DNA of 64,000 bases from NCBI RefSeq assembly GCF_010499265.1, contig NZ_JAAGSC010000031.1, forward strand, positions 62,001 to 126,000, read 5' to 3'. The DNA comes from Wenzhouxiangella limi. Lineage in GTDB: Bacteria; Pseudomonadota; Gammaproteobacteria; Xanthomonadales; Wenzhouxiangellaceae. The position numbers were made by a program, and so were the translations under genes. The notes beneath the pieces were generated by a model that saw nothing but the letters and a program-made list of their open reading frames with translations, ran no database searches and was not told the DNA's origin. Below are positions 24,944-37,120 of this stretch, one piece after another (the first letter of the stretch is position 1; every line of letters begins with the position of its first letter).

Positions 24944-27790
24944 ATGAGGCGATTTTCGATTCTGGCCGCCGGCTTGCTGGCGGCTTCCGTGGTCTCGGCC
25001 CAGAACGTCGAGGTGCCGCGGCTTCAGGCCGATGTGAACGTATTCACCGACGCCAACGGCATTCCCACCATCGTCGGCGAAACCGAGGCCGATGTGACCT
25101 TTGTCCAGGGCTATCTGCACGCCAGGGATCGCTTTTTCCAGATGGATTTCCTGCGCCGAGTGGCCTCGGGCAGCCTGGCCGAGCTGGTCGGCACCCCGGC
25201 TCTGGATAGCGATATCCAGCTTCGCACGCTGGGCCTGCGGCGGGCGGCCTGGGCCAGCTTTTCCGCGCTGGATACAGCCGAGTCGGCCTGGCTGAAAGCC
25301 TATGCCGACGGCGTCAATCACTGGCTGGCGACCAATCCCCTGCCGCCGGAATACGGTGGCCTGGAGCTGAGCGCCGCCGAGCCCTGGAGCGCGGTGGATT
25401 CGCTGGTTATCGGCAAGCTGCTGGCGTTCCAGTTGTCGTTCGACCAGAGCCTGTCGGCGATCGGCAACACGGTGCGCATCGGGACTTACCAGGCCGTCGG
25501 CGAGGCGGTCGGTTTCGACGGCACGGCGCTGTTCCTGCAGGATCTCAACCCGACCATCCCGGTCGACGACCGGGTCTCGATTCCCGATTTCTTCGAGCGC
25601 ATCGGCATCATCGTGCCCGACGCAGGGCAGGGCGAAGCCAGCAAGGGCGCGGGCGCCGGCCTGCAGCAGGCCGCCGAGTCCGCGTCCATGGATCGCGTCG
25701 ATCCCAAGCTGGTCGAGCTGGGCCAGCGCTACCTGGAGCGGGTGGAAGGGCTGCCGTTTCTGGGTCAGAACCTGGATCTGGGCAGCAACTGGTGGGCGGT
25801 GGCCGGCGAGCACACCGCGACCGGCTACCCGCTGTTTGCCAACGATCCCCATCTGGGCCTGACGATGCCGCCGATTTTCATGAACGAAAATCTGGTCATC
25901 CGCGATGAAGACATGGCCGTCAGCGGCGTGGTCTTTCCGGGCGCGCCGGTCAACGCGCAGGGCTGCACCCCGTTTTTGTGCTGGGGTTCGACCGTCAACC
26001 GGCTTGATGTTACCGACGTCTTCCAGGACCCGATTCTGGTCAACAACTTCGGCCTGCCCACCCACACCATCCACAAGGGCGTGCCCGAACGCATCCTCTA
26101 CGTGTTCCAGTCGTTTTTTGCCAACACGCCGGGCAACGGCGAAGTCGACGACGTCAATCGCGTCAACGTCGGTTTCGACGCCGGCGGCATTACCTTCATC
26201 GTGCCGCGGCGCAACAACGGCCCGATCCTGGAGCTGATGGGCGACAGCGCATTGACTGTGCAGTACACCGGCTGGGGTCCGACCTTCGAGCTGTCGGCGT
26301 TTCGCACCTGGGCTCGGGCCCGGAGCCAGGAAGACTTCGAGCTCGGCCTGCGCGATTTTGCCTTCGGTTCGCAGAACTTTCTCTACGCCGATGTTGAAGG
26401 CAACATCGCCTACTACGTCGGCGGCGAGATGCCGCTGCGCGCCGATCTGCAAAACGATCTGACCGCCGACGGCGGCCGCCCGCCCTGGTTCATCCGCGAC
26501 GGCAGCGGCGCCCTCAACCATGAGTGGCTGATCGATCCGGATCCCCAGCCCGGTCAGACCACCCCCTACGCGCTGATCCCCAGAGAGGAGATGCCGCGGG
26601 TAGTCAATCCGCCCTGGGGTTATATCGCCAACGCCAACAACGACCCGGTCGGTACCAGCCTGGACGGCAACCCGCTCAACCAGCTGCGCCCCGGCGGCAA
26701 CGGCATTTACTACCTCAATACCAGCTACGCCGATTTGCGCATGGGCCGGATCGACCGCGAGCTGCAGGACCTGGTCGCGCGCGGCAACGTCAGTATCGAC
26801 GACATGAAAGCGCTGCAGGCCAACAACGAGCTACTCGACGCCGAGCTGCTGCTGCCGTTCCTGCTGCAGGCGTTCGAAAATGCCACCGCCGATGAGGCCT
26901 GGCCGGGCCTGACCGAGCTCGCGGCCGATGAGCGGATCCAGGAAGCGATGGGCCGCCTGGCGGACTGGGATTTCTCCAGCCCGACCGGCCTGGCCGGTGG
27001 TTTCGATCCGGGCGGCGATCCTGGCGGCAACAGCACGCCCAGCCCCGATGAAATCGCCAACAGCGTCGCCACGACGATCTACAGCGTCTGGCGTGGCGAG
27101 GTCATCGCCAACACCATCGATGCCACGCTCAGCGCAGTCGGCCTGGGTGATTCCCTGCCGTCGAGCACGCTGGCCTGGCGGGCGCTGGTCAACCAGCTGC
27201 GCGCCTTTCCGCTGACCCAGGGCGAGGCGCCTTCCGGCCTGAGCTACTTCAACGTGCCCGAAGCACCAACGCCGGCCGATGCCCGCGACGCGGTGCTGCT
27301 GGCTTCGCTGCAGGGCGCGCTGGATCGGCTGGCCGGCGAGCCCTTTGCCAACGCGTTCGAGATGTCGGAGGATCAAAACGACTACCGCTGGGGCAAGCTC
27401 CACCGCGTGGTGTTCGATCACCCGCTCGACAGCGCGCCGTTCAACGTGCCGGGTGCGGGCGGTTTCAGCGACGTGGGCGAAAACCTCCCCGGCGTGGCCC
27501 GATCCGGCGGTTTCGAAGCCGTGGATGCGTCCAGCCACAGTGCCCGGGCGCGCTCGGAGAACGCGTTCACGTTCGGCTCCGGCCCGGCCCGCCGCAACGT
27601 CGCGGTGGTGACGCCTGAGGGTCCGGAGGCTGAGGAAATCGTTCCCGGTGGACGCAGCGGGCTGTTCTTGAGCCCGTTCTACACCAACCAGCTGCGCCTG
27701 TGGCTGGTCAACGATTACCTGCCGCTGACCATCGGTGAGGACCAGGCCGGACTCGGTGCGGCCGAGGTCACGACGTTCTCGCCGCGGTAA
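24944..27790 (+). CDS. Penicillin acylase family protein (secreted Ntn hydrolase)
   Basis: Large periplasmic or secreted amidase of 948 residues; relatives hydrolyse beta-lactam side chains or acyl-homoserine lactones. A signal peptide is clear (MRRFSILAAGLLAASVVSA, cleavage near residue 19). The precursor is self-cleaved to expose the beta-chain Ser: Ser281 in LGSNWWAV fits exactly. Supporting motifs are PTIVGETEADVTFVQGYLHARDRFFQMD, ANDPHLGLTMPP and FGSQNFLYADVEGNIAYYVGG (given in parts). A Gly/Pro-rich insert lies near residues 685-705 (GGFDPGGDPGGNSTPSP). Homoserine-lactone quenching is possible but unproved. kynA is 83 bp upstream. Confidence 0.92.
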   Translation: MRRFSILAAGLLAASVVSAQNVEVPRLQADVNVFTDANGIPTIVGETEADVTFVQGYLHARDRFFQMDFLRRVASGSLAELVGTPALDSDIQLRTLGLRRAAWASFSALDTAESAWLKAYADGVNHWLATNPLPPEYGGLELSAAEPWSAVDSLVIGKLLAFQLSFDQSLSAIGNTVRIGTYQAVGEAVGFDGTALFLQDLNPTIPVDDRVSIPDFFERIGIIVPDAGQGEASKGAGAGLQQAAESASMDRVDPKLVELGQRYLERVEGLPFLGQNLDLGSNWWAVAGEHTATGYPLFANDPHLGLTMPPIFMNENLVIRDEDMAVSGVVFPGAPVNAQGCTPFLCWGSTVNRLDVTDVFQDPILVNNFGLPTHTIHKGVPERILYVFQSFFANTPGNGEVDDVNRVNVGFDAGGITFIVPRRNNGPILELMGDSALTVQYTGWGPTFELSAFRTWARARSQEDFELGLRDFAFGSQNFLYADVEGNIAYYVGGEMPLRADLQNDLTADGGRPPWFIRDGSGALNHEWLIDPDPQPGQTTPYALIPREEMPRVVNPPWGYIANANNDPVGTSLDGNPLNQLRPGGNGIYYLNTSYADLRMGRIDRELQDLVARGNVSIDDMKALQANNELLDAELLLPFLLQAFENATADEAWPGLTELAADERIQEAMGRLADWDFSSPTGLAGGFDPGGDPGGNSTPSPDEIANSVATTIYSVWRGEVIANTIDATLSAVGLGDSLPSSTLAWRALVNQLRAFPLTQGEAPSGLSYFNVPEAPTPADARDAVLLASLQGALDRLAGEPFANAFEMSEDQNDYRWGKLHRVVFDHPLDSAPFNVPGAGGFSDVGENLPGVARSGGFEAVDASSHSARARSENAFTFGSGPARRNVAVVTPEGPEAEEIVPGGRSGLFLSPFYTNQLRLWLVNDYLPLTIGEDQAGLGAAEVTTFSPR

Positions 27791-27803
27791 GCGTTTGGAC
27801 CCG

Positions 27804-27862
27804 CGACCTGCCGGCAGCGGCAGGTCCACAACAGCAAAGCGCCCGCCTCGAGCGGGCGCTTT
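27804..27862 (+). terminator. Tandem hairpins after the penicillin acylase gene
   Basis: Two hairpins follow the stop codon. The first pairs ACCTGCC with GGCAGGT near 27806-27826. The second is a perfect 11-bp stem, AAAGCGCCCGC at 27836-27846 and GCGGGCGCTTT at 27852-27862, with a 5-nt loop. The stem ends in TTT but no longer U-run follows, so it is a moderate terminator candidate. Confidence 0.6.
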
Positions 27863-27923
27863 GTGCTTGAAAGCCGGACCGATGGCTGCCATTTCTCCTC
27901 TCTACTCCCAAAGACGCCAAGCG

Positions 27924-28376
27924 ATGCTGAACCTGTTGGATCGATTTTCCCTGGCCCACACCCAGGTCACCCGTCTGAACGCCGACCTCAAGGAGATCGT
28001 GGCCCCGGACCAGGCTTTCCGCGCCCAGGTCGAGCTCAAGCTCACCCCGCGCGCGATGCCGCCCGACCAGGGCGTCAACCAGTACCAGGTCACCGCGCGC
28101 ATGACCTGTCGCGGCAGCCGCGAGGCGGATGATCCAGAACACGCGCTGTTTGAAGTCGAGTTGGTGGTGCAGACGGTCTACCGCCAGTTCCAGGGCGATG
28201 CGGTGAGCTTCGAGGAGTTTTCCGGTGCTCATGCCAGCCTGACGCGGCAGCTTTACCCGCTGATGCACCACCAGCTGCAGCCGGTGTTCAAACAGTTCGG
28301 TCTCGACCAGGTCAAGCTGCCCTACGATCTGGTCAAGTCACCGGATACGCCGAGCGATGGACGCCAGCTGCACTGA
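27924..28376 (+). CDS. Uncharacterised protein with SecB-like features
   Basis: Protein of 150 residues without firm assignment. Its strand-rich N-terminal half (LNADLKEIV, FRAQVELKLTPRAM, QYQVTARMTCRGSRE, ALFEVELVVQTVYRQF) followed by a Leu-Tyr-Pro turn and a long helix (QLYPLMHHQLQPVFKQFGL) ending in QVKLPYDL recalls the SecB chaperone fold, whose C-terminal helix begins after a similar LFPY motif. Length also fits SecB (150-170). This is an inference from pattern, and overall identity to SecB is low. ATG 27924 was chosen; ATG 27882 would add 14 residues. It lies right after a terminator and 74 bp before the wax ester synthase gene. Confidence 0.6.
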   Translation: MLNLLDRFSLAHTQVTRLNADLKEIVAPDQAFRAQVELKLTPRAMPPDQGVNQYQVTARMTCRGSREADDPEHALFEVELVVQTVYRQFQGDAVSFEEFSGAHASLTRQLYPLMHHQLQPVFKQFGLDQVKLPYDLVKSPDTPSDGRQLH

Positions 28377-28450
28377 AAGACTCGATTGACCCCCGGCCGG
28401 GTGCGTGAAAGAATCATTCGCCATCGACAACAACAAGCAGGGAGAACGCC

Positions 28451-29935
28451 TTGAGCACCGCCCGTAGGGAACCGATCGCCAAGGTCGATACGGCCTGGCT
28501 GCGCATGGAGCAGCCGACGAACCTGATGATGATCACCGGCGTGATCGAGTTCTCCGGGTCGGTGGATTTCGAGCATTTCCGGCGCATCGTCGCCAACCGT
28601 TTCCTGGCCTTTCCGCGGTTTCGTCAAAAGGCGGTGGATCATCCGCGGGGCTGCTGGTGGGAAGAAGATGACCAGTTCGAATTGTCCAGCCATATCCGGC
28701 GCACCGCGCTTCCGGGTGATGCCGGCAAGGCCGAGCTCGAGGAACTGGTCTCGGAGCTGGCCTCGACCCCGCTGGACAAGACCAAACCGCTGTGGCAGTT
28801 CCATTTCGTCGAAAACTACGTCGGCGGGCCGGTCGCGATCAGCCGGATCCATCACTGCTACGCCGATGGCATTGCCCTGGTCGAGGTCATGCTGTCGCTG
28901 ACCGAACGCTCGGCCGAGGCTTCCAATCGCCTGGTCGAGCAGGAGGCCTGGAAACAGAAACGCGCGGCCGAGTCGAATATCTTCAATCGGCTTACGGCGC
29001 CGGCCCGCCAGAGCGCCGGGTTGATCCAGAACGTCAGCCAGAAGGTGGTCGACGAGGCCGGTGACCTGCTTCGTGAGCCCCACAAGGCGGCCCAGTATCT
29101 GTTTGGCGCCGGCGAGATCGTGTCCGAACTGGCCACCGCGTTGCTGCTCGAGGACGACCCGCCATCGCGATTCAAGGGTTCGCTCAGCGTGCGCAAGCGG
29201 GTCTCCTGGGCGCGGCCGCTGCCCCTGGAGGAAGTCAAGGCCGTCGGCCATGCGCTGGGCGCCACGGTCAACGACGTCCTGATCTCGGTCATGACCGGCG
29301 CGCTGCACCGCTACCTGGTCGACGCGGGCGATGATCCCCGGGATCTGACGATGCGTGCGACCGTGCCGGTCAACCTGCGGCCGCTGGAGCACGCGCGCGA
29401 CCTGGGCAACCACTTCGGCCTGGTCTTCCTGGATTTGCCGATTGACGAGACCAATCCGCTGGCGCGGCTGTATCAGGTCGCGGAGTTCATGGGTCAGCTC
29501 AAGCGCTCGAAGCAGGCGGTCATGTCGCTGGGGCTGCTGGCGGTACTCGGCATGGGTCCGGCTGCGCTGCAGAAGCCGGCGCTGGAGTTATTCAGCCGCA
29601 AGGCCAGCACCGTTTTGACGAATGTTCCCGGACCTCAGCAGACGCTCTACATGGCCGGCGCGCCGATCCGCGAGATGATGTTCTGGGTCCCGCAGACCGG
29701 CTCGATCGGCATGGGCATCAGCATCATCAGCTACCGGGGGCAGGTCTTTTGCGGCCTGATTACCGACAACAAGCTGGTGCCGGATCCTGAAACGGTCATG
29801 ACCCACTTTCTCGAAGAATTCGACAACCTGTTGCACCTGACGCTGCTGATCGGGCCGCAGGACGGGCACGTTGCGCCGGATACCTACGACGAGGTGCACG
29901 AGTGGATTCGCGGCAGCGATCAGGTCGCGAGGTAG
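28451..29935 (+). CDS. Wax ester synthase / acyl-CoA:diacylglycerol acyltransferase (WS/DGAT)
   Basis: Bifunctional acyltransferase that joins acyl-CoA to fatty alcohols or diacylglycerol, forming wax esters or triacylglycerol at the cytoplasmic membrane and lipid inclusions. The 494-residue protein has the catalytic HHxxxDG motif as HHCYADG (residues 134-140), the neighbouring PLW (residues 113-115), the NDVLISVMTGAL motif in the middle and the C-terminal TNVPGPQQTLYMAGAPI block. TTG 28451 is preceded by GGGAG at normal spacing. It lies near a phasin, an acyl-CoA-binding protein and a fatty acyl reductase, so wax ester synthesis is a coherent role. Its 3' end overlaps the convergent TPR gene by 16 bp. 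Confidence 0.95.
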   Translation: MSTARREPIAKVDTAWLRMEQPTNLMMITGVIEFSGSVDFEHFRRIVANRFLAFPRFRQKAVDHPRGCWWEEDDQFELSSHIRRTALPGDAGKAELEELVSELASTPLDKTKPLWQFHFVENYVGGPVAISRIHHCYADGIALVEVMLSLTERSAEASNRLVEQEAWKQKRAAESNIFNRLTAPARQSAGLIQNVSQKVVDEAGDLLREPHKAAQYLFGAGEIVSELATALLLEDDPPSRFKGSLSVRKRVSWARPLPLEEVKAVGHALGATVNDVLISVMTGALHRYLVDAGDDPRDLTMRATVPVNLRPLEHARDLGNHFGLVFLDLPIDETNPLARLYQVAEFMGQLKRSKQAVMSLGLLAVLGMGPAALQKPALELFSRKASTVLTNVPGPQQTLYMAGAPIREMMFWVPQTGSIGMGISIISYRGQVFCGLITDNKLVPDPETVMTHFLEEFDNLLHLTLLIGPQDGHVAPDTYDEVHEWIRGSDQVAR

Positions 29936-30753
29936 CTTCTGGCGTACTCGATATCGAGTTTCTGCATGGCGTCGATGGGTGAGATGGCGACGGCCTGCTC
30001 GTAGGCCTGGTTGGATTCCTCCAGGCGCTTGTCGCCGTACAGGAGGTAGAGCGCGTTGCCGTATTCGATGTGGGCAATGGGCGCTTTCGGGGTGAGCTCC
30101 AGGGCGGCCTGGCACTCTGAAATGGCCTTGTCGGCCTTTGCGCCATAGGTCATGCCGCCCACCAGTTTGCCCACCTTGTCGATGATTTCGGCATGGTACA
30201 GCCCCGAAGCGGTGCGTGCCTCGGCGTGATCGGGTGCGAGTTCCAGAGCCCGGTCCAGCGACTGTCGAATTCTGCCGCCGACGCCCTGGGTCAGCGCTTT
30301 GGCCACGGAGATGCACTGGCTGTAGCGCCCCAGCAGAAAGGCGTGGAAATAGTGCGCGTTGGCGTCGCCGGGATAGGCCTGGATGGCCGCATCGGCGCGC
30401 TTGATGCCGGCCTGGTAGATGGCCAGCCGGGTCTTTTCGTCTTCTTCCAGGTAGTCGGCGTAGATGCCGCTGGCCTTGTTGGCCACGGCATGGGCCAGAG
30501 GGCCGATGGCCAGGGCACCTTCGACGGCAGCGGCGAATCGTCCGGCATGATAATCACGCCAGGCCTGCTGCCAGGCCGCCGCCGTGGTCTCCGGGTCGGG
30601 TTGATCGGGATCGAGCGAACGGACTCGGTCGGCATCGGGAAAAGGTTCAAGATCGCCCTGGTGCAGACGTGCCCAGGTTTTCTCCAGCGCCTGACCGTCG
30701 AACTGGAACTTCGGGCTGCTGTGCGGAAAGGCCGACCACGCGCTGGTGTCCAT
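29920..30753 (-). CDS. TPR-repeat protein, uncharacterised
   Basis: Helical repeat protein of 277 residues, predicted cytoplasmic. At least three tetratricopeptide-like units are seen after residue 60 (AWRDYHAGRFAAAVEGALAI; ADAAIQAYPGDANAHYFHAF; AISECQAALELTPKAPIAHIEYGNALYLLY). The conserved-looking segment with LGRYSQCISVAKALTQGVGG and GLYHAEIIDKVGKLVGGMTY recalls a bacterial family similar to regulator-of-microtubule-dynamics TPR proteins. ATG 30753 was chosen since upstream codons read through an unrelated Trp/Pro/Arg-rich shadow. It is divergent from the phasin (98 bp) and tail-to-tail with the wax ester synthase, so it may belong to the storage-lipid cluster. Confidence 0.8.
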   Translation of the reverse strand: MDTSAWSAFPHSSPKFQFDGQALEKTWARLHQGDLEPFPDADRVRSLDPDQPDPETTAAAWQQAWRDYHAGRFAAAVEGALAIGPLAHAVANKASGIYADYLEEDEKTRLAIYQAGIKRADAAIQAYPGDANAHYFHAFLLGRYSQCISVAKALTQGVGGRIRQSLDRALELAPDHAEARTASGLYHAEIIDKVGKLVGGMTYGAKADKAISECQAALELTPKAPIAHIEYGNALYLLYGDKRLEESNQAYEQAVAISPIDAMQKLDIEYARSYLAT

Positions 30754-30851
30754 GATTAGTGTGACTGCTCTAGAACCCGGACGTATCTTAACCATCAAAG
30801 CTGATCGAAAGACAGCGTTTGACTGAAACGATTTCCAAGGAGGCACACACA

Positions 30852-31445
30852 GTGGCCAAGAAAACCGCAAAGAAAAAGGTTGCCAAGAAAAAGGTGACCA
30901 AGAAAACCGCAGCGCGCAAGAATGTCGCCAACCAGGCGCAGGATTACGCGCACGAAATCTGGCTGGCCGGTCTGGGTGCTTTTGCCATGGCACAGGACGA
31001 AGGCAGCAAATTGTTCAAGGAAAGCAGCAAGCGGTTCGACGACACCACCAGCAAGGTGGTTGGCGAATCGACCAAGCTGTTTGAACGCCTGGTCAAGGAA
31101 GGCTCCAAGATGGAAAACAAGGGCCGCAAGATGGCATCGGATACCGTCGGCGGCGTTCGCGGCGACGTAGAATCCCGGATCGACGAAGTTCGCAAGTCAG
31201 CCCAGACCAACTGGGACAAGCTCGAGAAAGTCTTCGAGCAGCGCGTTGCCCGCGCCCTGAGTCGTCTTGGTGTCCCGACCTCCGACGAAATCCGCGAGCT
31301 CAGCGACCGGGTCGCGGAGCTCAACAAGCGCGTCACAGAACTGGCCCGCAAGCAACAGGCGCCGAAGCCGGCGGCCTCGAAAAAGGTGGCCAAAAAAGCC
31401 GCAGCCAAGCCGGCCGAGCCGCAAACGCCTGCCAAGTCGGACTGA
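30852..31445 (+). CDS. Phasin (PhaF/PhaI-type granule-associated protein)
   Basis: Storage-granule coat protein of 197 residues. The central part (about 25-150) is an amphipathic phasin helix with the family segment YAHEIWLAGLGAFAMAQDEG, followed by coiled-coil repeats (SDRVAELNKRVTELARK). Both ends are strongly basic: Lys-rich at residues 2-22 (AKKTAKKKVAKKK) and an Ala/Lys/Pro tail like the histone-like region of PhaF, which binds DNA and helps distribute granules. GTG 30852 is selected by a textbook AAGGAGG at 30837-30843. A PhaD-like regulator is convergent downstream, as in Pseudomonas PHA loci, but no PHA synthase is present; the wax ester synthase is the nearby lipid polymer-forming enzyme. 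Confidence 0.88.
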   Translation: MAKKTAKKKVAKKKVTKKTAARKNVANQAQDYAHEIWLAGLGAFAMAQDEGSKLFKESSKRFDDTTSKVVGESTKLFERLVKEGSKMENKGRKMASDTVGGVRGDVESRIDEVRKSAQTNWDKLEKVFEQRVARALSRLGVPTSDEIRELSDRVAELNKRVTELARKQQAPKPAASKKVAKKAAAKPAEPQTPAKSD

Positions 31446-31507
31446 TCGAAACGACTACCCCGAAGCAGTCCGGGCTTCCCTCGGCCCGTATCAGACTGCT
31501 ACTTTTG

Positions 31508-31535
31508 ACCCGGGCGATTCGCCCGGGTTTTTTTT
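31508..31535 (+). terminator. Strong intrinsic terminator after the phasin gene
   Basis: An 8-bp perfect stem, ACCCGGGC at 31508-31515 and GCCCGGGT at 31521-31528, with a 5-nt loop, is followed by eight consecutive T residues (31528-31535). It ends phasin transcription before the convergent TetR gene. The other strand lacks a U-tract. Confidence 0.92.
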
Positions 31536-31538
31536 GCC

Positions 31539-32156
31539 TTATCCATATGCGTCGGCCAGCGCCTGCAGATGTTCGCGCGAGCTGCCCACCAGGTAGGGGC
31601 TGATCAGGCTCATGACCTGCCAGGCGGCTCGGTCAGGTCGCACGCCGTCGGCGTCCTGGACCTGATCGAAGGCCAGCCAGAAGGTGCTGACCAGCGCGAT
31701 GTTGCGAATCAGCGCTTCGAGTTCGCGCGCCGACGCCTGCATCTGACCGTCGGCGATCAGATCGTCGCACAACCCGCGGGCCGACTGCATGGTCAGGCGC
31801 AATATGCCGCGGAACCGCTGGTGCAGCCCGCGATAGCGGTGGCACAGGTCGATCAGGTCGCGGTAGATGAAACGGTATTCGCCGATGGTTTCGAAGGCGA
31901 CGTGCAGCAGGAACCAGATGTCTTCAATGTTGGCCGCGCGCTCCTCCGGGGCGGCGAGAATCTCCAGCATGCGGTGCTCGAAAGACGCAAACAGGGTCTC
32001 GATCAGGTCTGACTTGGTGCGGAAGTGGTAGTGCAGGTTGCCGGGACTGATATCGAGCTCGTCGGCAATCCGGTTGGTCGTGACGTTGGGTTCGCCTTCA
32101 TCGTTGAAAAGGACCAGGGCGGTTTCCAGGATGCGCTGGCGGGTATTACGAGCCAT
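31539..32156 (-). CDS. TetR family regulator, PhaD-like
   Basis: Transcription factor of 205 residues. The N-terminal helix-turn-helix (RQRILETALVLFNDEGEPNV through ISPGNLHYHFRTKSDLIETLF) resembles Pseudomonas PhaD closely in the FN..GEPNV and DISPGNLHYHF segments, and the C-terminal domain follows the PhaD pattern (ANIEDIWFLLHVAF, YRFIYRDLIDL). PhaD activates phasin and PHA genes and senses an acyl-CoA-type ligand. Here the gene is convergent with the phasin and 15 bp downstream of the acyl-CoA-binding protein gene, so the pair probably forms one operon. Control of the wax ester genes is inferred. Confidence 0.88.
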   Translation of the reverse strand: MARNTRQRILETALVLFNDEGEPNVTTNRIADELDISPGNLHYHFRTKSDLIETLFASFEHRMLEILAAPEERAANIEDIWFLLHVAFETIGEYRFIYRDLIDLCHRYRGLHQRFRGILRLTMQSARGLCDDLIADGQMQASARELEALIRNIALVSTFWLAFDQVQDADGVRPDRAAWQVMSLISPYLVGSSREHLQALADAYG

Positions 32157-32171
32157 GCACTGGGCGCCCTT

Positions 32172-32429
32172 TCAGCTTTTGAGCGATTCGACCAGGTCGA
32201 TGTATTTCTGCTTGGCCTCGTCGCTTGGCATGCCCTTGCGCTTTTCCCAGGCCTCGTACTTGGCTACGCCGACAAAGTCGAAAAAGCCCGGCTTTTCGCC
32301 GCTGACATCCCCCTCTGCGGCCTGCTTGTAGTAGCTGTAGAGCTTGAGCATGGTGTCGTTGTCGGGCCTTGCCGGCAGTTGCTTGGCGTCTGCTTGTGCC
32401 TGCTCGAAGCGGGTATCTAAATCGCTCAT
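32172..32429 (-). CDS. Acyl-CoA-binding protein
   Basis: Small soluble carrier of long-chain acyl-CoA (ACBP), 85 residues, typical length. The four-helix bundle signature is clear: DTRFEQAQADAKQLP, DTMLKLYSYYKQAAEGDV (the KLYSYYKQA ligand-binding motif), FFDFVGVAKYEAWEKRKGM with the conserved K..AW..., and AKQKYIDLVESL. ATG 32429 matches family starts. ACBPs are sporadic in bacteria; here it lies upstream of the PhaD-like regulator and divergent from the fatty acyl reductase gene, which uses acyl-CoA. It probably buffers or delivers acyl-CoA to FAR and WS/DGAT. Confidence 0.95.
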   Translation of the reverse strand: MSDLDTRFEQAQADAKQLPARPDNDTMLKLYSYYKQAAEGDVSGEKPGFFDFVGVAKYEAWEKRKGMPSDEAKQKYIDLVESLKS

Positions 32430-32486
32430 TGTAGGTTCCGGGTCGATTGCAATACGAAGACCCACTTTCTAGCATGCACCCCCGTT

Positions 32487-32501
32487 CCGGTCAATGACCG
32501 G
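32487..32501. promoter_or_regulatory. Candidate operator palindrome in the ACBP/FAR divergent region
   Basis: A perfect 15-bp palindrome, CCGGTCA-A-TGACCGG, lies in the 194-bp intergenic region, 58 bp upstream of the acyl-CoA-binding protein ATG and 123 bp upstream of the reductase ATG. Its size fits a TetR-dimer site, and the PhaD-like TetR gene lies in the ACBP operon. Binding is inferred; no second copy was found upstream of WS/DGAT or phasin. Confidence 0.4.
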
Positions 32502-32623
32502 CGCGAGCAAGCGTCCGGACCGATTGATTCAAGAAAGCCTCAGGTGGCACAAATCCGGGTCAGGCGGTATCTTAGGCGGTCAGAGAGGCATTCTTGAAAA
32601 AACGACTGCAGGGAGAAGTATTC

Positions 32624-34612
32624 ATGACCTATTTCGTCACCGGCGGCACGGGGTTCATCGGCCGTAACCTGATCGATCAGCTGCTGGCGCGCAAGGGCGT
32701 CGTGCACGTGCTGGTGCGCAGGGGTTCGAAAAAGAAATTCAACCGCCTGGTCGAGGAGCGCTGGAGCGATCACAAGAAACGGCTCGTGGCCGTGAGCGGT
32801 GACCTGACCAAGCCCGCGCTGGGATTGAGCGCGGCCGATCGCGAAGCCCTGACCGGCAAGGTTCGGCACTTCTTCCACCTGGCTGCCGTCTACGATCTCA
32901 AGGCCAGCGCCGAAGACAACCAGGCCGCCAACATCGACGGCACCCGGCACGCCATCCAGTGTGCTGAAGTACTGCAGGCCAAGTGCTTTCATCACACCTC
33001 CTCGATCGCTGCAGCCGGTCTTTACCGGGGCACTTTCCGCGAGGACATGTTCGAAGAAGCCAGCGACCTCAACCATCCCTACTTCCGGACCAAGCACGAT
33101 TCCGAAGGGCTGGTGCGCAAGCACTGCAATATCCCCTGGCGAATCTATCGGCCCGGCATCGTGGTCGGACACTCGGAGACCGGCGAGATCGACAAGATCG
33201 ACGGCCCCTACTATTTCTTCAAGCTGATCCAGAAAATGCGGCGCATGCTGCCGCCCTGGGTGCCGACGCTGGGCCTGGAAGGCGGACGGGTCAACCTGGT
33301 ACCGGTCGACTTCGTTGCCAGGGCGATGGATCACATTGCCCACAAGCCAAAGCTGGACGGGCAGTGTTTTCACTTGACCGATCCCAGCCCCAAGCGGATC
33401 GGCGCGGTCATGAACCTGTTTGCCGAGGCGGCCCACGCGCCGCTGATGTCGATGCGCCTGGACGCGCGCCTGTTTTCGCTGATCCCGGCGCCGGTCAAGC
33501 AGGGACTGGGCATGCTGCCGCCGGTGCGGCGGATCATCAACCAGGTGCTCAAGGACCTGGGGATTCCGAAGGACATGCTGACTTTTTTCAATTACCCGAC
33601 CCACTTCGATACCCGCGAAGCCGAGCGAGCGCTCAAGGGTTCCGGCATCAGCGTGCCCCCGCTCGATGACTACGCCTGGGTGCTGTGGGATTACTGGGAG
33701 CGCCACCTGGATCCGGAACTGTTCATCGATCGCTCCCTGTCGGGCAAGGTCCGCGACAAGGTGGTGGTGGTCACCGGGGCGTCCTCGGGCATCGGCAAGG
33801 CCACCGCGCTGATGATGGGGGAGGCCGGTGCGAAAACCATCATCGTGGCCCGTGGCGAAGAGCAGTTGCTGGAAACCAGAGCCGAAATCGAGGCTGCCGG
33901 CGGCCAGGCCCATGCCTACACCTGCGACCTGGCCGATCTGAGCGACGCCGAACGCCTGATCGGGCAGGTCCTGTCCGATCATGGTCACGTCGATATTCTG
34001 ATCAACAACGCCGGGCGTTCCATCCGGCGCTCGATCTCGCTGTCCTACGACCGTTTTCACGACTACGAGCGCTGCATGCAGTTGAACTATTTCGGTTCGC
34101 TGAAGCTGATCATGGGCTTCTTGCCGGTCATGGAGAAGCGCCGCAAGGGCCAGGTCATCAATATTTCGTCTATCGGCGTGCTCTCCAACGCGCCGCGGTT
34201 TTCGGCCTACGTTGCCTCCAAGGCGGCGCTGGATGCGTTTGCCCGCTGCGCGGCCTCCGAGTTCAACGACACCGGCGTGTCGTTTACCACCATCAACATG
34301 CCGCTGGTGCGCACGCCGATGATCGCGCCGACCAAGATGTATGAGTCGGTGCCGACGATCACGCCGGAGGATGCGGCCGACATGGTCAAGCAGGCCGTGA
34401 TCTATCGGCCGCAGCGCATCGCCACGCGGCTGGGTATTTTCTCCCAGGTGCTGCACTCGATTGCGCCAAAGAGCTCGGAGATCATCATGAACTCCGCTTT
34501 CCGGATGTTCCCGGACTCATCCGCCGCGCGAGGGCAGCAGTCGGACACGGACGACCAGCCGACCCAGGAACAGGTGGCGTTCGCCTCGCTCATGCGGGGT
34601 ATTCACTGGTAA
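32624..34612 (+). CDS. Fatty acyl-CoA/acyl-ACP reductase, alcohol-forming, two-domain (Marinobacter FAR type)
   Basis: Four-electron reductase that turns acyl-CoA or acyl-ACP into fatty alcohol with NADPH. The 662-residue protein fuses two SDR domains. Domain 1 is male-sterility-like (residues about 1-370): nucleotide motif TGGTGFIG at 6-13, Ser/Tyr/Lys site with Y153-x3-K157. Domain 2 is Acr1-like (about 375-610): TGASSGIG at 384-391, NNAGRSIRRS, and YxxxK in YVASKAALDAF. The length, domain order and C-terminal EQVAFASLMRGIHW match the Marinobacter FAR as I recall it. ATG 32624 follows GGGAG at 32611-32615. With WS/DGAT and ACBP nearby it gives a complete wax ester route. Confidence 0.93.
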   Translation: MTYFVTGGTGFIGRNLIDQLLARKGVVHVLVRRGSKKKFNRLVEERWSDHKKRLVAVSGDLTKPALGLSAADREALTGKVRHFFHLAAVYDLKASAEDNQAANIDGTRHAIQCAEVLQAKCFHHTSSIAAAGLYRGTFREDMFEEASDLNHPYFRTKHDSEGLVRKHCNIPWRIYRPGIVVGHSETGEIDKIDGPYYFFKLIQKMRRMLPPWVPTLGLEGGRVNLVPVDFVARAMDHIAHKPKLDGQCFHLTDPSPKRIGAVMNLFAEAAHAPLMSMRLDARLFSLIPAPVKQGLGMLPPVRRIINQVLKDLGIPKDMLTFFNYPTHFDTREAERALKGSGISVPPLDDYAWVLWDYWERHLDPELFIDRSLSGKVRDKVVVVTGASSGIGKATALMMGEAGAKTIIVARGEEQLLETRAEIEAAGGQAHAYTCDLADLSDAERLIGQVLSDHGHVDILINNAGRSIRRSISLSYDRFHDYERCMQLNYFGSLKLIMGFLPVMEKRRKGQVINISSIGVLSNAPRFSAYVASKAALDAFARCAASEFNDTGVSFTTINMPLVRTPMIAPTKMYESVPTITPEDAADMVKQAVIYRPQRIATRLGIFSQVLHSIAPKSSEIIMNSAFRMFPDSSAARGQQSDTDDQPTQEQVAFASLMRGIHW

Positions 34613-34649
34613 CGATCCGTCGCGACGGGATCGATCAGGTCAGGAATGC

Positions 34650-35882
34650 TCAGCCGCGCAGCAGGCGATCGAGCTGGTCGAGGCTGCGCGCCAGGCTGTT
34701 GCCCATGGGCGCCAGGTAGCGTTTTTCCGCCGCCATGGCCTCGGTGAAGCTGCGCTCTTTGCGGAGAATCTGGCGGTTGAGGCCCAGTTCGTAGGGCTCG
34801 AGAAACGATTCCATGGCGTCGGCGCGGGCCAGCAGTTCGGCGCGCGTGGTCCGGTAGGCGTGATCGACCAGTTCGTTGCGCGATGAATAGCTGAACACGT
34901 TGGTAAAGAACATGCGCTCATCGTTGCGGTTGGGTTCGACCAGCAGGATGGAAGAGCCCGGGAACTCGGTCTGGTATTTCGCCATGCCGACCTGCATGCG
35001 CGACTGGATGAGCGAGCGGAAGGTCTGCGAGAGCACCACCGGCAGCCCCCCCTTGATCATGCGGCTGGAACTGCGCCCGTCCGGGGGTACCTGCGGATCC
35101 AGCTCGGCATCGTAAGGCACCAGGGGGTTGATGCCGATCAGCAGATCGGCGCCTTCCTTGAGGGCAACCGATGCGTGCAGGGTTCGCCGCAGGGCGCCGT
35201 CGACGAAGTAATGGCCGTCGATTTCGACCGGTGGATACAGGCCGGGCAGGGCGGCCGAGGCCTGGACGGCGGTTGATATCGGCACGTGGTCACGGCCACT
35301 CTCTCCGAAGCGGACCGCCTGGCCGGTTTCCAGGTCCACGGCCACGATGCGCAGGCGCGCGCTCAGGTTCCGGAAATCGTTGCTGCGACCCGGACGCGCC
35401 AGAATTCCAGCCACGAAGTCGTCAATGCTGTGATTATCGAAAATACCGGTCGGTATCAGTCGGCTCAGGCTCTCGATACTTTCCAGGTGGGCGATGCGCT
35501 CGGGGTGGCGCATGGCCTCGACCAGGATATCGAGCACGACGCCGGGTACGCTCATCGCGCGGTCGAAATACTCGCGCACGGCCGGGCGCAGGAACAGTTC
35601 GGGCTGGAACCGGAACTCCGCCTCCGGCGAGCTCATGAAGATCCGGCTCATCTGGCTGGTTGTGATGCGGTTGGCCAGGCTTGCCGTCAGGAACGAGCCC
35701 GAGCTGACGCCCACATAGACGTCCAGGTCGTGCATGCGAACCCCGTCGATGGCTTCCTCCAGTGCTTGCAGGGCGCCGAGTTCGTAGATCGCGCCCAGCG
35801 GACCACCGCCGGCAATGGCCAGGCCGATGGTCGGGGGTCGCGTGAGCTGTCGATCCTGGCTGGCCGGGGTGAGCTTGAGCAT
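34650..35882 (-). CDS. Patatin-like phospholipase / lipid hydrolase
   Basis: Serine lipid acyl hydrolase of 410 residues. The patatin catalytic dyad is intact: oxyanion hole GGGPLG (residues 25-30), nucleophile S60 in GVSSGSF, and D228 in DGA. ATG 35882 is chosen because an AGGAGG-like ribosome-binding site precedes it; upstream sequence is not conserved. No signal peptide is seen, so action is on the cytoplasmic side. Its place next to the fatty acyl reductase, convergent, suggests turnover of stored neutral lipid or of membrane lipids, but a phospholipase role is equally possible. Confidence 0.9.
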   Translation of the reverse strand: MLKLTPASQDRQLTRPPTIGLAIAGGGPLGAIYELGALQALEEAIDGVRMHDLDVYVGVSSGSFLTASLANRITTSQMSRIFMSSPEAEFRFQPELFLRPAVREYFDRAMSVPGVVLDILVEAMRHPERIAHLESIESLSRLIPTGIFDNHSIDDFVAGILARPGRSNDFRNLSARLRIVAVDLETGQAVRFGESGRDHVPISTAVQASAALPGLYPPVEIDGHYFVDGALRRTLHASVALKEGADLLIGINPLVPYDAELDPQVPPDGRSSSRMIKGGLPVVLSQTFRSLIQSRMQVGMAKYQTEFPGSSILLVEPNRNDERMFFTNVFSYSSRNELVDHAYRTTRAELLARADAMESFLEPYELGLNRQILRKERSFTEAMAAEKRYLAPMGNSLARSLDQLDRLLRG

Positions 35883-35906
35883 CGAAGTTGCCTCCTGTTG
35901 CTCGAT

Positions 35907-35912
35907 TATAAT
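35907..35912 (+). promoter_or_regulatory. Candidate -10 element of the peroxiredoxin operon
   Basis: A perfect TATAAT lies 40 bp upstream of the peroxiredoxin ATG, in the divergent region with the patatin gene. A good -35 at 17-bp spacing is not evident. Confidence 0.35.
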
Positions 35913-35951
35913 GCAGGGCCTGATCATCTTTTCAGCACGAGAAGAAAACCC

Positions 35952-36401
35952 ATGACGATCCAGACCGGCGATCGCGCGCCCGATTTCGAACTGCCTGACC
36001 AGGATGACGCATTGTTCCGACTGTCTGATCATCTCGGCAAGCGGCTGCTGCTGGTGTTCTATCCGGGCGATGACACGCCGGTCTGCACAGCCCAGCTATG
36101 CGACTATCGCGACGGCCTGGACGCCTTTGCGGGGCTGGAGGTGGACGTCATCGGAATCAGTCCCGACGATCCTGCCTCTCACCGCGCTTTTCGCGACAAG
36201 CACGATCTCCCCTTCACGCTACTCAGCGACACCAACCTAGAAGTCGCTCGAAAGTATGACTGCAAGGCATTGATTGGAATGAAAAGAGGGGTGTTTCTCC
36301 TGGACGAAAATCATCGCGTTAGGTACCGCCACGTGGAAAGCGTGGCCGTTTTCCGGCGCCGACGCGATGAGCTGATCGAGGCGATCCGGCAGCTGGGATG
36401 A
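35952..36401 (+). CDS. Thioredoxin-dependent peroxiredoxin, Bcp/PrxQ type
   Basis: Thiol peroxidase of 149 residues that reduces hydrogen peroxide and lipid hydroperoxides. The peroxidatic Cys45 ([10 protein letters not shown]) and resolving Cys50 (CTAQLC, five residues later) define the BCP/PrxQ atypical 2-Cys group. ATG 35952 gives the standard N-terminus ([13 protein letters not shown]). The stop overlaps the next ATG by 4 bp (ATGA). Codons from about 36220 to 36330 look foreign: CTA twice, AGA, AGG and several A/T-ending codons in a lower-GC patch, unlike the rest of the gene. Confidence 0.93.
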
Positions 36402-37120
36402 CCCTTTCGGCGTCCTACCGGCATCTGCATGAGCAGATCCTTCTCAATCAGGAGCTGGGCCGGCGCATCCAGGCGCTTGACGTGCCGCATGCCCGGTCGC
36501 TGGCGCGTCTCCAGCACTGGCAGCTGCAGCGCCTGGATGCCACTTACCAGGACCTGCGCGACGATCCGCGCTACCTGCCGGCCTGCGAATTCTTTCTTCA
36601 CGAACTCTACGGCGGGCGAGACTTCGTCGAACGTGACCGCCAGCTGATGCGGGCCGCTCCGGTGATGCGAAGGTTTCTTCCCGATCACCTGCTGGCGGCG
36701 GTGGGAGATGCCATGCAGCTGCAGGCCGTCAGTCTGCAGTTCGATCTGGCGCTGGCCGAGCTGCTGGTGGCAGTCGATCCGATTACCCAGCCCGACTATG
36801 CGCGCGCCTACCGCGCTCATGGTGACTGGGCCGGGCGCGAGCGTCAGCTGGTGCTGATCCGCGAACTTGGTGAACTGCTGGGAGAGACCGTCCAGCGGCC
36901 GCTGGTGCATCGCCTGATCCGCCTGATGCACGGCCCGGCCGTGGTCGCGGGATTCGGGATGCTGCAGGTCTTTCTGCGCGACGGTCTGGACGCGTTTGCC
37001 GAAATGGGCCCGGCCGATCATTTCCTCGACACCATCAGCGCGCGCGAGCGTGCCGGGCTCGAGGCCATGCGCGCCGGCAGCGACTGGCCGTTCGAGCGCT
37101 GGATCGGCCAGGGGCCATAA
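36398..37120 (+). CDS. FFLEELY-motif family protein, uncharacterised
   Basis: All-helical protein of 240 residues of a gammaproteobacterial family named for its FFLEELY motif, read here as [16 protein letters not shown] (about residues 66-81). No enzyme motif is seen. Predicted soluble, rich in long helices and conserved Arg/Asp. It is co-translated with the peroxiredoxin through an ATGA overlap, which hints at a role in oxidative stress or in the same regulon, but function is not known. The family name is from memory. Confidence 0.75.

Follow-up and report, generated by a model that had tools for sequence, protein, structure and literature searches.

The genome of Wenzhouxiangella limi (Gammaproteobacteria, Xanthomonadales; 3.35 Mb in 44 contigs) carries a compact island of seven genes whose predicted products point to the storage of neutral lipids. 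The island is located in a stretch of 64,000 nucleotides of contig NZ_JAAGSC010000031.1 (positions 62,001 to 126,000), which we call the window and to whose numbering the coordinates below refer. An earlier note on this DNA had described seven genes in 7.5 kb and named functions for six of their products. All seven are present where they were placed, with intact reading frames and strong family matches, and the seventh encodes a tetratricopeptide repeat (TPR) protein. We propose, with a probability of about 0.75, that the island is a chromosomal module for the storage of wax ester and possibly also of triacylglycerol (TAG). The island consists of the following genes.

28451..29935, + strand: wax ester synthase/diacylglycerol acyltransferase (WS/DGAT); TTG start; HHCYADG active-site motif
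29920..30753, - strand: TPR protein of 277 aa from an uncharacterised family; predicted fold closest to those of BstC and the TPR domain of PTPIP51
30852..31445, + strand: phasin (PF05597), both ends rich in Lys and Ala; start codon GTG by comparison with relatives
31539..32156, - strand: TetR-family regulator (PF13972)
32172..32429, - strand: acyl-CoA-binding protein (ACBP); YKQA motif
32624..34612, + strand: two-domain fatty acyl reductase (FAR; NF005539/PRK07201); YFRTK and YVASK motifs
34650..35882, - strand: patatin-like lipase; GVSSG and DGA motifs

Gene identities

The family assignments are based on profile scores well above the model cut-offs. WS/DGAT scores 411.6 bits against TIGR02946 in the NCBIfam scan (cut-off 309.95), and its HHCYADG motif, of the HHxxxDG type, is at residue 134. 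FAR reaches 992 bits against NF005539 (cut-off 549) and combines the NAD_binding_4 and adh_short domains; each half contains a YxxxK motif, which would fit the alcohol-forming two-domain kind. The phasin matches PF05597 (135.1 bits vs 28.8) and TIGR01837 (111 vs 94.7), and ACBP, the TetR protein and the lipase match PF00887 (100 bits, cut-off 28.3), PF13972 (128, cut-off 25) and PF01734 (95, cut-off 27.7), respectively. The motifs HHxxxDG, YxxxK, GVSSG, DGA and YKQA are marks of these families. The label 'PhaD-like', previously given to the TetR protein, was not confirmed, as only general TetR models matched in Pfam and NCBIfam. A sequence search of solved structures at E<=1e-20 matched WS/DGAT to two distant acyltransferases and returned no structure named as a two-domain FAR. 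All listed matches of FAR in a plasmid search were below 60% identity. The genome also contains a second WS/DGAT (locus L081, G000:C35:215568) with 26% identity to the island copy, around which none of 14 island and flank protein queries found a match.

Conservation of gene order

In a genus sample of 30 genomes that included our own, WS/DGAT was found in 27 and FAR over its cut-off in 25. We compared 19 stretches from 17 other genus genomes, together with one around the second WS/DGAT of W. limi. The recurrent order is a gene for a 150-aa protein, WS/DGAT, TPR, phasin, TetR, ACBP and FAR, usually followed by patatin. The island halves lie about 310 kb apart in one genome (G023), split between phasin and TetR, and on two contigs in another (G015). 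In three genomes (G002, G003 and G024), patatin does not adjoin FAR but is located elsewhere, and the fetched contig of G020 starts at TetR. A scatter of these genes in all close relatives would have refuted the earlier proposal and was not observed; apart from a few breaks, the cluster is preserved in the 17 genus genomes compared. In a further genome of the genus (G028, 1.8 Mb, 98% complete), searches recovered ACBP but none of FAR, WS/DGAT, TPR, patatin and phasin.

Outside the genus, partners were called by score thresholds in the best 80 of at least 594 stretches that carry FAR, many of them short. TetR and ACBP each accompany FAR in 68 of these loci, phasin in 54, TPR in 43, patatin in 41 and WS/DGAT in 24, and all six occur together in 12. 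When only the 42 loci that extend 9 kb or more to both sides of FAR are counted, the numbers are 37 for TetR, 37 for ACBP, 33 for phasin, 25 for TPR, 27 for patatin and 14 for WS/DGAT. Marinicella loci (L133, L134 and L140) have ACBP and TetR as the sole partners, and loci of Competibacteraceae (L143) and Contendobacter (L158) have all partners except TPR. Three contigs from Burkholderiales or Betaproteobacteria (L111, L139 and L154) carry all seven genes in a different order, which disfavours mere inertia of gene order.

Co-occurrence across the order

Gene content was then counted in an even sample of 121 genomes of the order. FAR was called at E<=1e-120 (NF005539), TPR at E<=1e-30 and patatin at E<=1e-60 with their profiles. 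Three short WS/DGAT fragments and the second pieces of split genes were left out of the counts. FAR and WS/DGAT occur together in 81 genomes and are both absent from 39; FAR never occurs alone, and WS/DGAT does so once, in a genome that is 67% complete (G101). The TPR family is found in 77 genomes, every one of them FAR-positive, and patatin in 75, namely 74 FAR-positive genomes and G101. ACBP is present in 77 of the 81 FAR-positive genomes. Phasin, counted only over its cut-off (96 genomes, with 8 genomes of sub-cut-off matches at E<=0.001 left out), is present in all 81. All six families occur in 70 of the 121 genomes, FAR, WS/DGAT, TPR and patatin are jointly absent in 39, and 12 (G101 and 11 FAR-positive genomes) are intermediate. 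In four families (f1, f2, f9 and f12) and two genera of a fifth (f8), some members possess the set and others have none of FAR, WS/DGAT, TPR and patatin. Because members differ for the whole set within these six clades, the block seems to have undergone gain or loss as a whole on roughly six or more occasions, a count made by comparison of members alone.

Even where the cluster is broken, pairs of its genes persist. FAR and ACBP lie within 3 kb of each other in 71 of the 77 genomes that have both. TPR and phasin do so in 55 of 77, and in 26 of these 55 genomes no FAR lies within 12 kb of TPR. Patatin and phasin are similarly close in 35 of 74, with patatin away from FAR in 21 of the 35. All of WS/DGAT, TPR, phasin, ACBP and patatin lie within 12 kb of FAR in 13 of the 81 FAR-positive genomes, figures of this kind being lowered by assembly breaks, as many assemblies are fragmented. 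Since these pairs outlast the cluster, FAR-ACBP-TetR, TPR-phasin and patatin-phasin seem to travel as sub-modules that the window unites. The closeness of FAR and ACBP and the full clustering in the 13 genomes bear out an association beyond chance.

Could the genes be neighbours by inherited order alone, with no common function? The genus loci are related and have common flanks, such as BCP and FFLEE, as such an explanation would have it. However, the reordered betaproteobacterial sets, the absence of the block as a whole within six clades and the pairs that survive cluster breaks make it highly improbable.

A proposed module for wax ester storage

The conservation of the cluster in the genus and the mostly joint presence or absence of its genes across the order support a single neutral-lipid system, for which we propose the following scheme. 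ACBP would buffer long-chain acyl-CoA, part of which FAR would reduce to fatty alcohol, and WS/DGAT would esterify the alcohol with acyl-CoA to give wax ester. The resulting droplet is probably coated by the phasin, as perhaps are polyhydroxyalkanoate (PHA) granules where these are present. Lipid binding or an adaptor function at the droplet surface is the most likely role of the TPR protein, whose gene is divergent from that of the phasin. The patatin-like lipase would free fatty acids from the store, and the TetR protein, whose gene adjoins that of ACBP, is probably an acyl-CoA sensor that regulates the ACBP and FAR promoters. The gene families, active-site motifs, gene order in the genus, co-occurrence and recurrent TPR-phasin and FAR-ACBP pairs are observed; we infer the wax ester product, the coating, the lipid binding by TPR and the ligand and targets of TetR.

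Several observations weigh against this scheme. ACBP and phasin also occur in FAR-negative genomes (14 and 15 of 40, respectively), and 11 of the 81 FAR-positive genomes are without one or two of the other families. WS/DGAT lies within 12 kb of FAR in just 23 of 81 genomes. The FAR loci of Marinobacter (L160), Hahella (L144) and Sansalvadorimonas (L145) contain none of the six partners, and the same holds for Parendozoicomonas (L126) and two betaproteobacterial loci (L110 and L150). In a sparse class-wide sample of 369 genomes, FAR was found in 12, TPR in 6 and both in 4; thus, 8 of the 12 FAR genomes are without TPR, and 2 of the 6 TPR genomes (G317 and G483) are without FAR. In another genome of that sample (G347), TPR is located away from FAR. 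Around TPR, the stretches fetched from G317 (19.9 kb), G483 (11.5 kb) and G347 (19.9 kb) contain no further module gene. The Fisher probabilities (5e-31 for FAR with WS/DGAT and 8e-28 for TPR) ignore shared ancestry, involve no species tree and are not to be read literally. Among the sequences listed, inspection by eye revealed no common palindromic operator upstream of ACBP/FAR, TPR/phasin and WS/DGAT. Finally, PHA synthases are present in the window genome and in other module genomes.

WS/DGATs are bifunctional, and the system might mainly make TAG, with WS/DGAT acting as a diacylglycerol acyltransferase and the alcohol from FAR used elsewhere. The second WS/DGAT in the genome is a point for this alternative. 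Against it, FAR is never found apart from WS/DGAT in the 121 genomes, and WS/DGAT without FAR appears only in the incomplete G101. In addition, no GPAT, AGPAT or PAP domain lies beside WS/DGAT among the ten proteins scanned at 27735-37120, unlike in Kennedy-pathway TAG clusters. We consider a TAG-dominated system unlikely and retain wax ester as the probable main product.

The phasin and polyhydroxyalkanoate metabolism

W. limi has a polyhydroxybutyrate (PHB) locus of its own on contig C15 (L179, 4446-7568), which comprises the PHA synthase PhaC (PF07167, 245 bits), an adjacent short-chain dehydrogenase/reductase (SDR) and the regulator PhaR. None of the ten proteins scanned there is a PF05597 phasin, and the island phasin is the sole PF05597 gene of the genome. 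Conversely, the ten proteins scanned in the island region include no PhaC, which is encoded on the other contig.

How widely does the phasin occur together with a PHA synthase? The PhaC_N domain (PF07167) was matched at E<1e-40 in 11 of the 121 genomes and more weakly or partially in 28, with 14 of these 28 over, or raised over, the model cut-off. Twelve of the 28 weak-match loci were fetched and ten of them tested (the set L180-L190; L189 and L191 left out), and all ten proteins are class III PhaC, with 519-550 bits against TIGR01836 (cut-off 365). PF07167 detects these class III enzymes from relatives in the order only at E values of 1e-6 to 1e-3, and a genome survey that used PF07167 alone would miss them. 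In the 58 genomes where FAR or WS/DGAT has a phasin gene no more than 12 kb away, the PhaC match is strong in 9, weak in 8 and absent at E<=0.001 in 41. Since PF07167 barely detects class III PhaC, these 41 genomes cannot count as free of PHA synthase. The notion that the phasin is retained in the absence of PHA synthase in most module genomes was rejected once the ten weak PhaC_N matches tested proved to be class III PhaC.

These results give some weight to the alternative that the phasin, and with it the TetR protein, serves PHA metabolism or both stores and is no dedicated wax ester coat. It accords with the PHB locus of W. limi, whose genome has its only PF05597 gene in the island, and with the 9 strong and 8 weak PhaC matches next to module-linked phasins, seven of the ten confirmed class III enzymes coming from those 8 genomes. 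However, detected PhaC does not track the module (21 of 81 FAR-positive and 18 of 40 FAR-negative genomes have a PhaC_N match of any strength), whereas phasin does, with 81 of 81 against 15 of 40. Furthermore, the closest neighbour of the phasin is the TPR gene, which in this order is found only in FAR-positive genomes, and the PHB locus carries its own regulator, PhaR. We regard a role of the phasin in PHA metabolism, or in both stores, as possible, at a probability well short of even.

The earlier proposal of one functional wax ester system with a dedicated carrier and coat stands in part. A neutral-lipid system is upheld at the genomic level. A coat reserved for wax ester is less sure because of the PhaC, SDR and PhaR genes of W. 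limi itself and the class III PhaC of other genomes, and both ACBP and phasin, which mostly accompany FAR, also occur in FAR-negative genomes.

The TPR protein

What is the function of the TPR protein, one of the most informative members of the module? The window protein shares 47-67% identity with 32 other sequences of its family, and its AlphaFold2 model has a mean pLDDT of 97.4. The nearest folds in the Protein Data Bank (PDB) by Foldseek are BstC (3.2e-6) and the TPR domain of PTPIP51 (4.4e-5; TM 0.58/0.69), followed by designed TPRs (1.5e-4 and weaker). The PTPIP51 TPR domain is described as binding phospholipid and transferring phosphatidic acid in vitro (in passages of PMC9239997), and BstC as a bacterial sterol transporter with hydrophobic cavities (in passages of PMC10942540). 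The predicted fold of the window TPR protein comes closest to these two, and its family shows a weak sequence signal of the same kind. Twelve of 33 members match RMD1-3 (PF21033) at E<=0.01, with a best value of 2.5e-9, and the member from L116 exceeds the cut-off (27.0 vs 26.7 bits). The window protein itself has no RMD1-3 match at E<=0.01 and remains far under the cut-off of the BstC model NF045602 (22.2 of 350 bits). A TPR-containing GGDEF protein of the window likewise gave no RMD1-3 match. On the strength of the predicted fold, we hypothesise that the TPR protein binds lipid, outside membership of the BstC or RMD1-3 families.

A plain protein-protein adaptor of the MamA or PilF kind, with no lipid-binding role, has about an even chance of being the better description. 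In a sequence search of the PDB, the family profile places designed TPRs first (4e-29), ahead of PTPIP51 (0.004) and BstC (0.33). The weak NCBIfam matches among the 33 members are more often to PilW (19), Tgl (15) and MamA (15) than to BstC (8), and MamA structures are among the Foldseek matches. By contrast, the fold comparison ranks BstC and PTPIP51 above designed TPRs, and the RMD1-3 matches, with at least one over the cut-off, favour the lipid-binding hypothesis. A bolder possibility, less likely than not, is that the phasin and a lipid-binding TPR protein form a conserved pair for droplet building, inherited in one nearly all-or-none module with FAR, WS/DGAT, ACBP and patatin.

Promoters and regulation

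The intergenic regions of the island contain the following conserved or promoter-like elements.

30756..30774, + strand: conserved block TTAGTGTG-N4-CTCTAG(A), in the gap that separates the divergent genes for TPR and phasin
30784..30790, + strand: TATCTTA promoter-like element of phasin
32430..32623, no strand assigned: promoter region of the divergent ACBP and FAR genes; two pairs of promoter-like hexamers, preserved in most genus loci
32568..32574, + strand: TATCTTA promoter-like element of FAR

In the gap between TPR and phasin, TTAGTGTG-N4-CTCTAG followed by TATC[TG]TA recurs in 16 of 17 sequences (the exception, L080, has diverged), and the block occurs once in the window even when up to 3 mismatches are allowed. 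The ACBP/FAR region contains TGGCa-N17-TATCTT upstream of FAR and TTGACC-N17-TAGAAA on the ACBP side, both kept in most genus loci. In the 399 kb of genus DNA that surround the island, the motif TATC[TG]TA has 34 occurrences, of which 16 are at phasin (17 loci), 11 at FAR (18 loci) and 7 elsewhere. Because 27 of the 34 occurrences are located at FAR or phasin, the distribution hints at a common promoter class for these two genes. As inspection by eye brought out only promoter-like hexamers and the TTAGTGTG-N4-CTCTAG block, and no TetR operator, a TetR regulon is putative. The TPR start codon directly adjoins a conserved CACACTAA block (30754-30800), and the TPR mRNA may be leaderless because of this abutment.

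Comparison with known systems

The window has the same two-domain FAR type and WS/DGAT as the wax ester pathway of Marinobacter (MAQU_2220/MAQU_2507 with WS/DGAT), and its FAR is 63% identical to a FAR of M. xestospongiae, the Marinobacter protein used for this comparison. The Marinobacter locus L160 differs in that no phasin, TetR, ACBP, TPR, patatin or WS/DGAT lies within 10 kb on either side of FAR, which agrees, for this one locus, with the statement in the earlier note that FAR and WS/DGAT are not clustered with phasin and ACBP in Marinobacter. In mycobacteria, two reductases make fatty alcohol, and wax ester is much reduced in their mutants; one of the two, a related two-domain FAR from M. 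tuberculosis, has 40% identity to MAQU_2507 across 639 aa (passages of PMC3522743).

Galvan et al. (2023, PMC10351704) describe beta- and gammaproteobacterial scaffolds in which ACBP and SDRs with 49.5-61.9% identity to MAQU_2507 lie near WS/DGAT, and one WS/DGAT scaffold with a phasin. In the passages of that paper on WS/DGAT neighbourhoods, neither TetR nor TPR nor patatin is listed among the members (its main text does not contain the word 'patatin'), and no co-occurrence across genomes is given, unlike in the present survey. As in the Kennedy-pathway TAG clusters that they place around WS/DGAT, the window has WS/DGAT among neutral-lipid genes. Like loci for PHA granules (phasin, PhaR/PhaD), the island encodes a TetR regulator and a PF05597 phasin whose ends are rich in Lys and Ala; it differs from them in that the island proteins scanned include no PhaC, the PHA synthases of this and other genomes being located elsewhere. 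Neither the seven-gene set nor the TPR protein is described in the titles and abstract openings of the open-licence literature matches listed. Thus, the chemistry and the presence of ACBP and FAR near WS/DGAT are known, and the nearly all-or-none module and its TPR member seem to be undescribed.

To our knowledge, the building and coating of wax ester droplets in bacteria other than actinomycetes are little understood. The proposed module would offer a compact gene set of carrier, reductase, synthase, phasin, TPR partner, lipase and regulator, and it links an uncharacterised TPR family to wax ester genes through occurrence. It also predicts which Xanthomonadales should produce wax esters and would supply parts for wax ester production in other hosts. 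On the bolder and less likely reading, proteobacterial wax ester stores would have dedicated non-enzyme machinery, namely a phasin and a lipid-binding TPR protein structurally akin to the PTPIP51 and BstC carriers.

Flanking genes

Two further genes border the island.

27924..28376, + strand: 150-aa protein of no known family with a predicted SecB-like fold; adjoins WS/DGAT across the genus; possible partner
36398..37120, + strand: FFLEELY-motif family protein (NF047641); often adjoins patatin; peripheral

The 150-aa protein belongs to no Pfam family (the window protein reaches an E value of 0.24 at best, and one relative 8e-4), and PHROGs yielded no match for it or for the TPR protein. Foldseek places its model (pLDDT 80; four other models score lower) nearest to Rv1957 (4.7e-7) and then SecB, which suggests a SecB-like chaperone fold. 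Other flanking genes putatively encode TDO, penicillin acylase and TypA. The FFLEELY-motif protein is found in 32 of the 80 FAR loci, mainly next to patatin.

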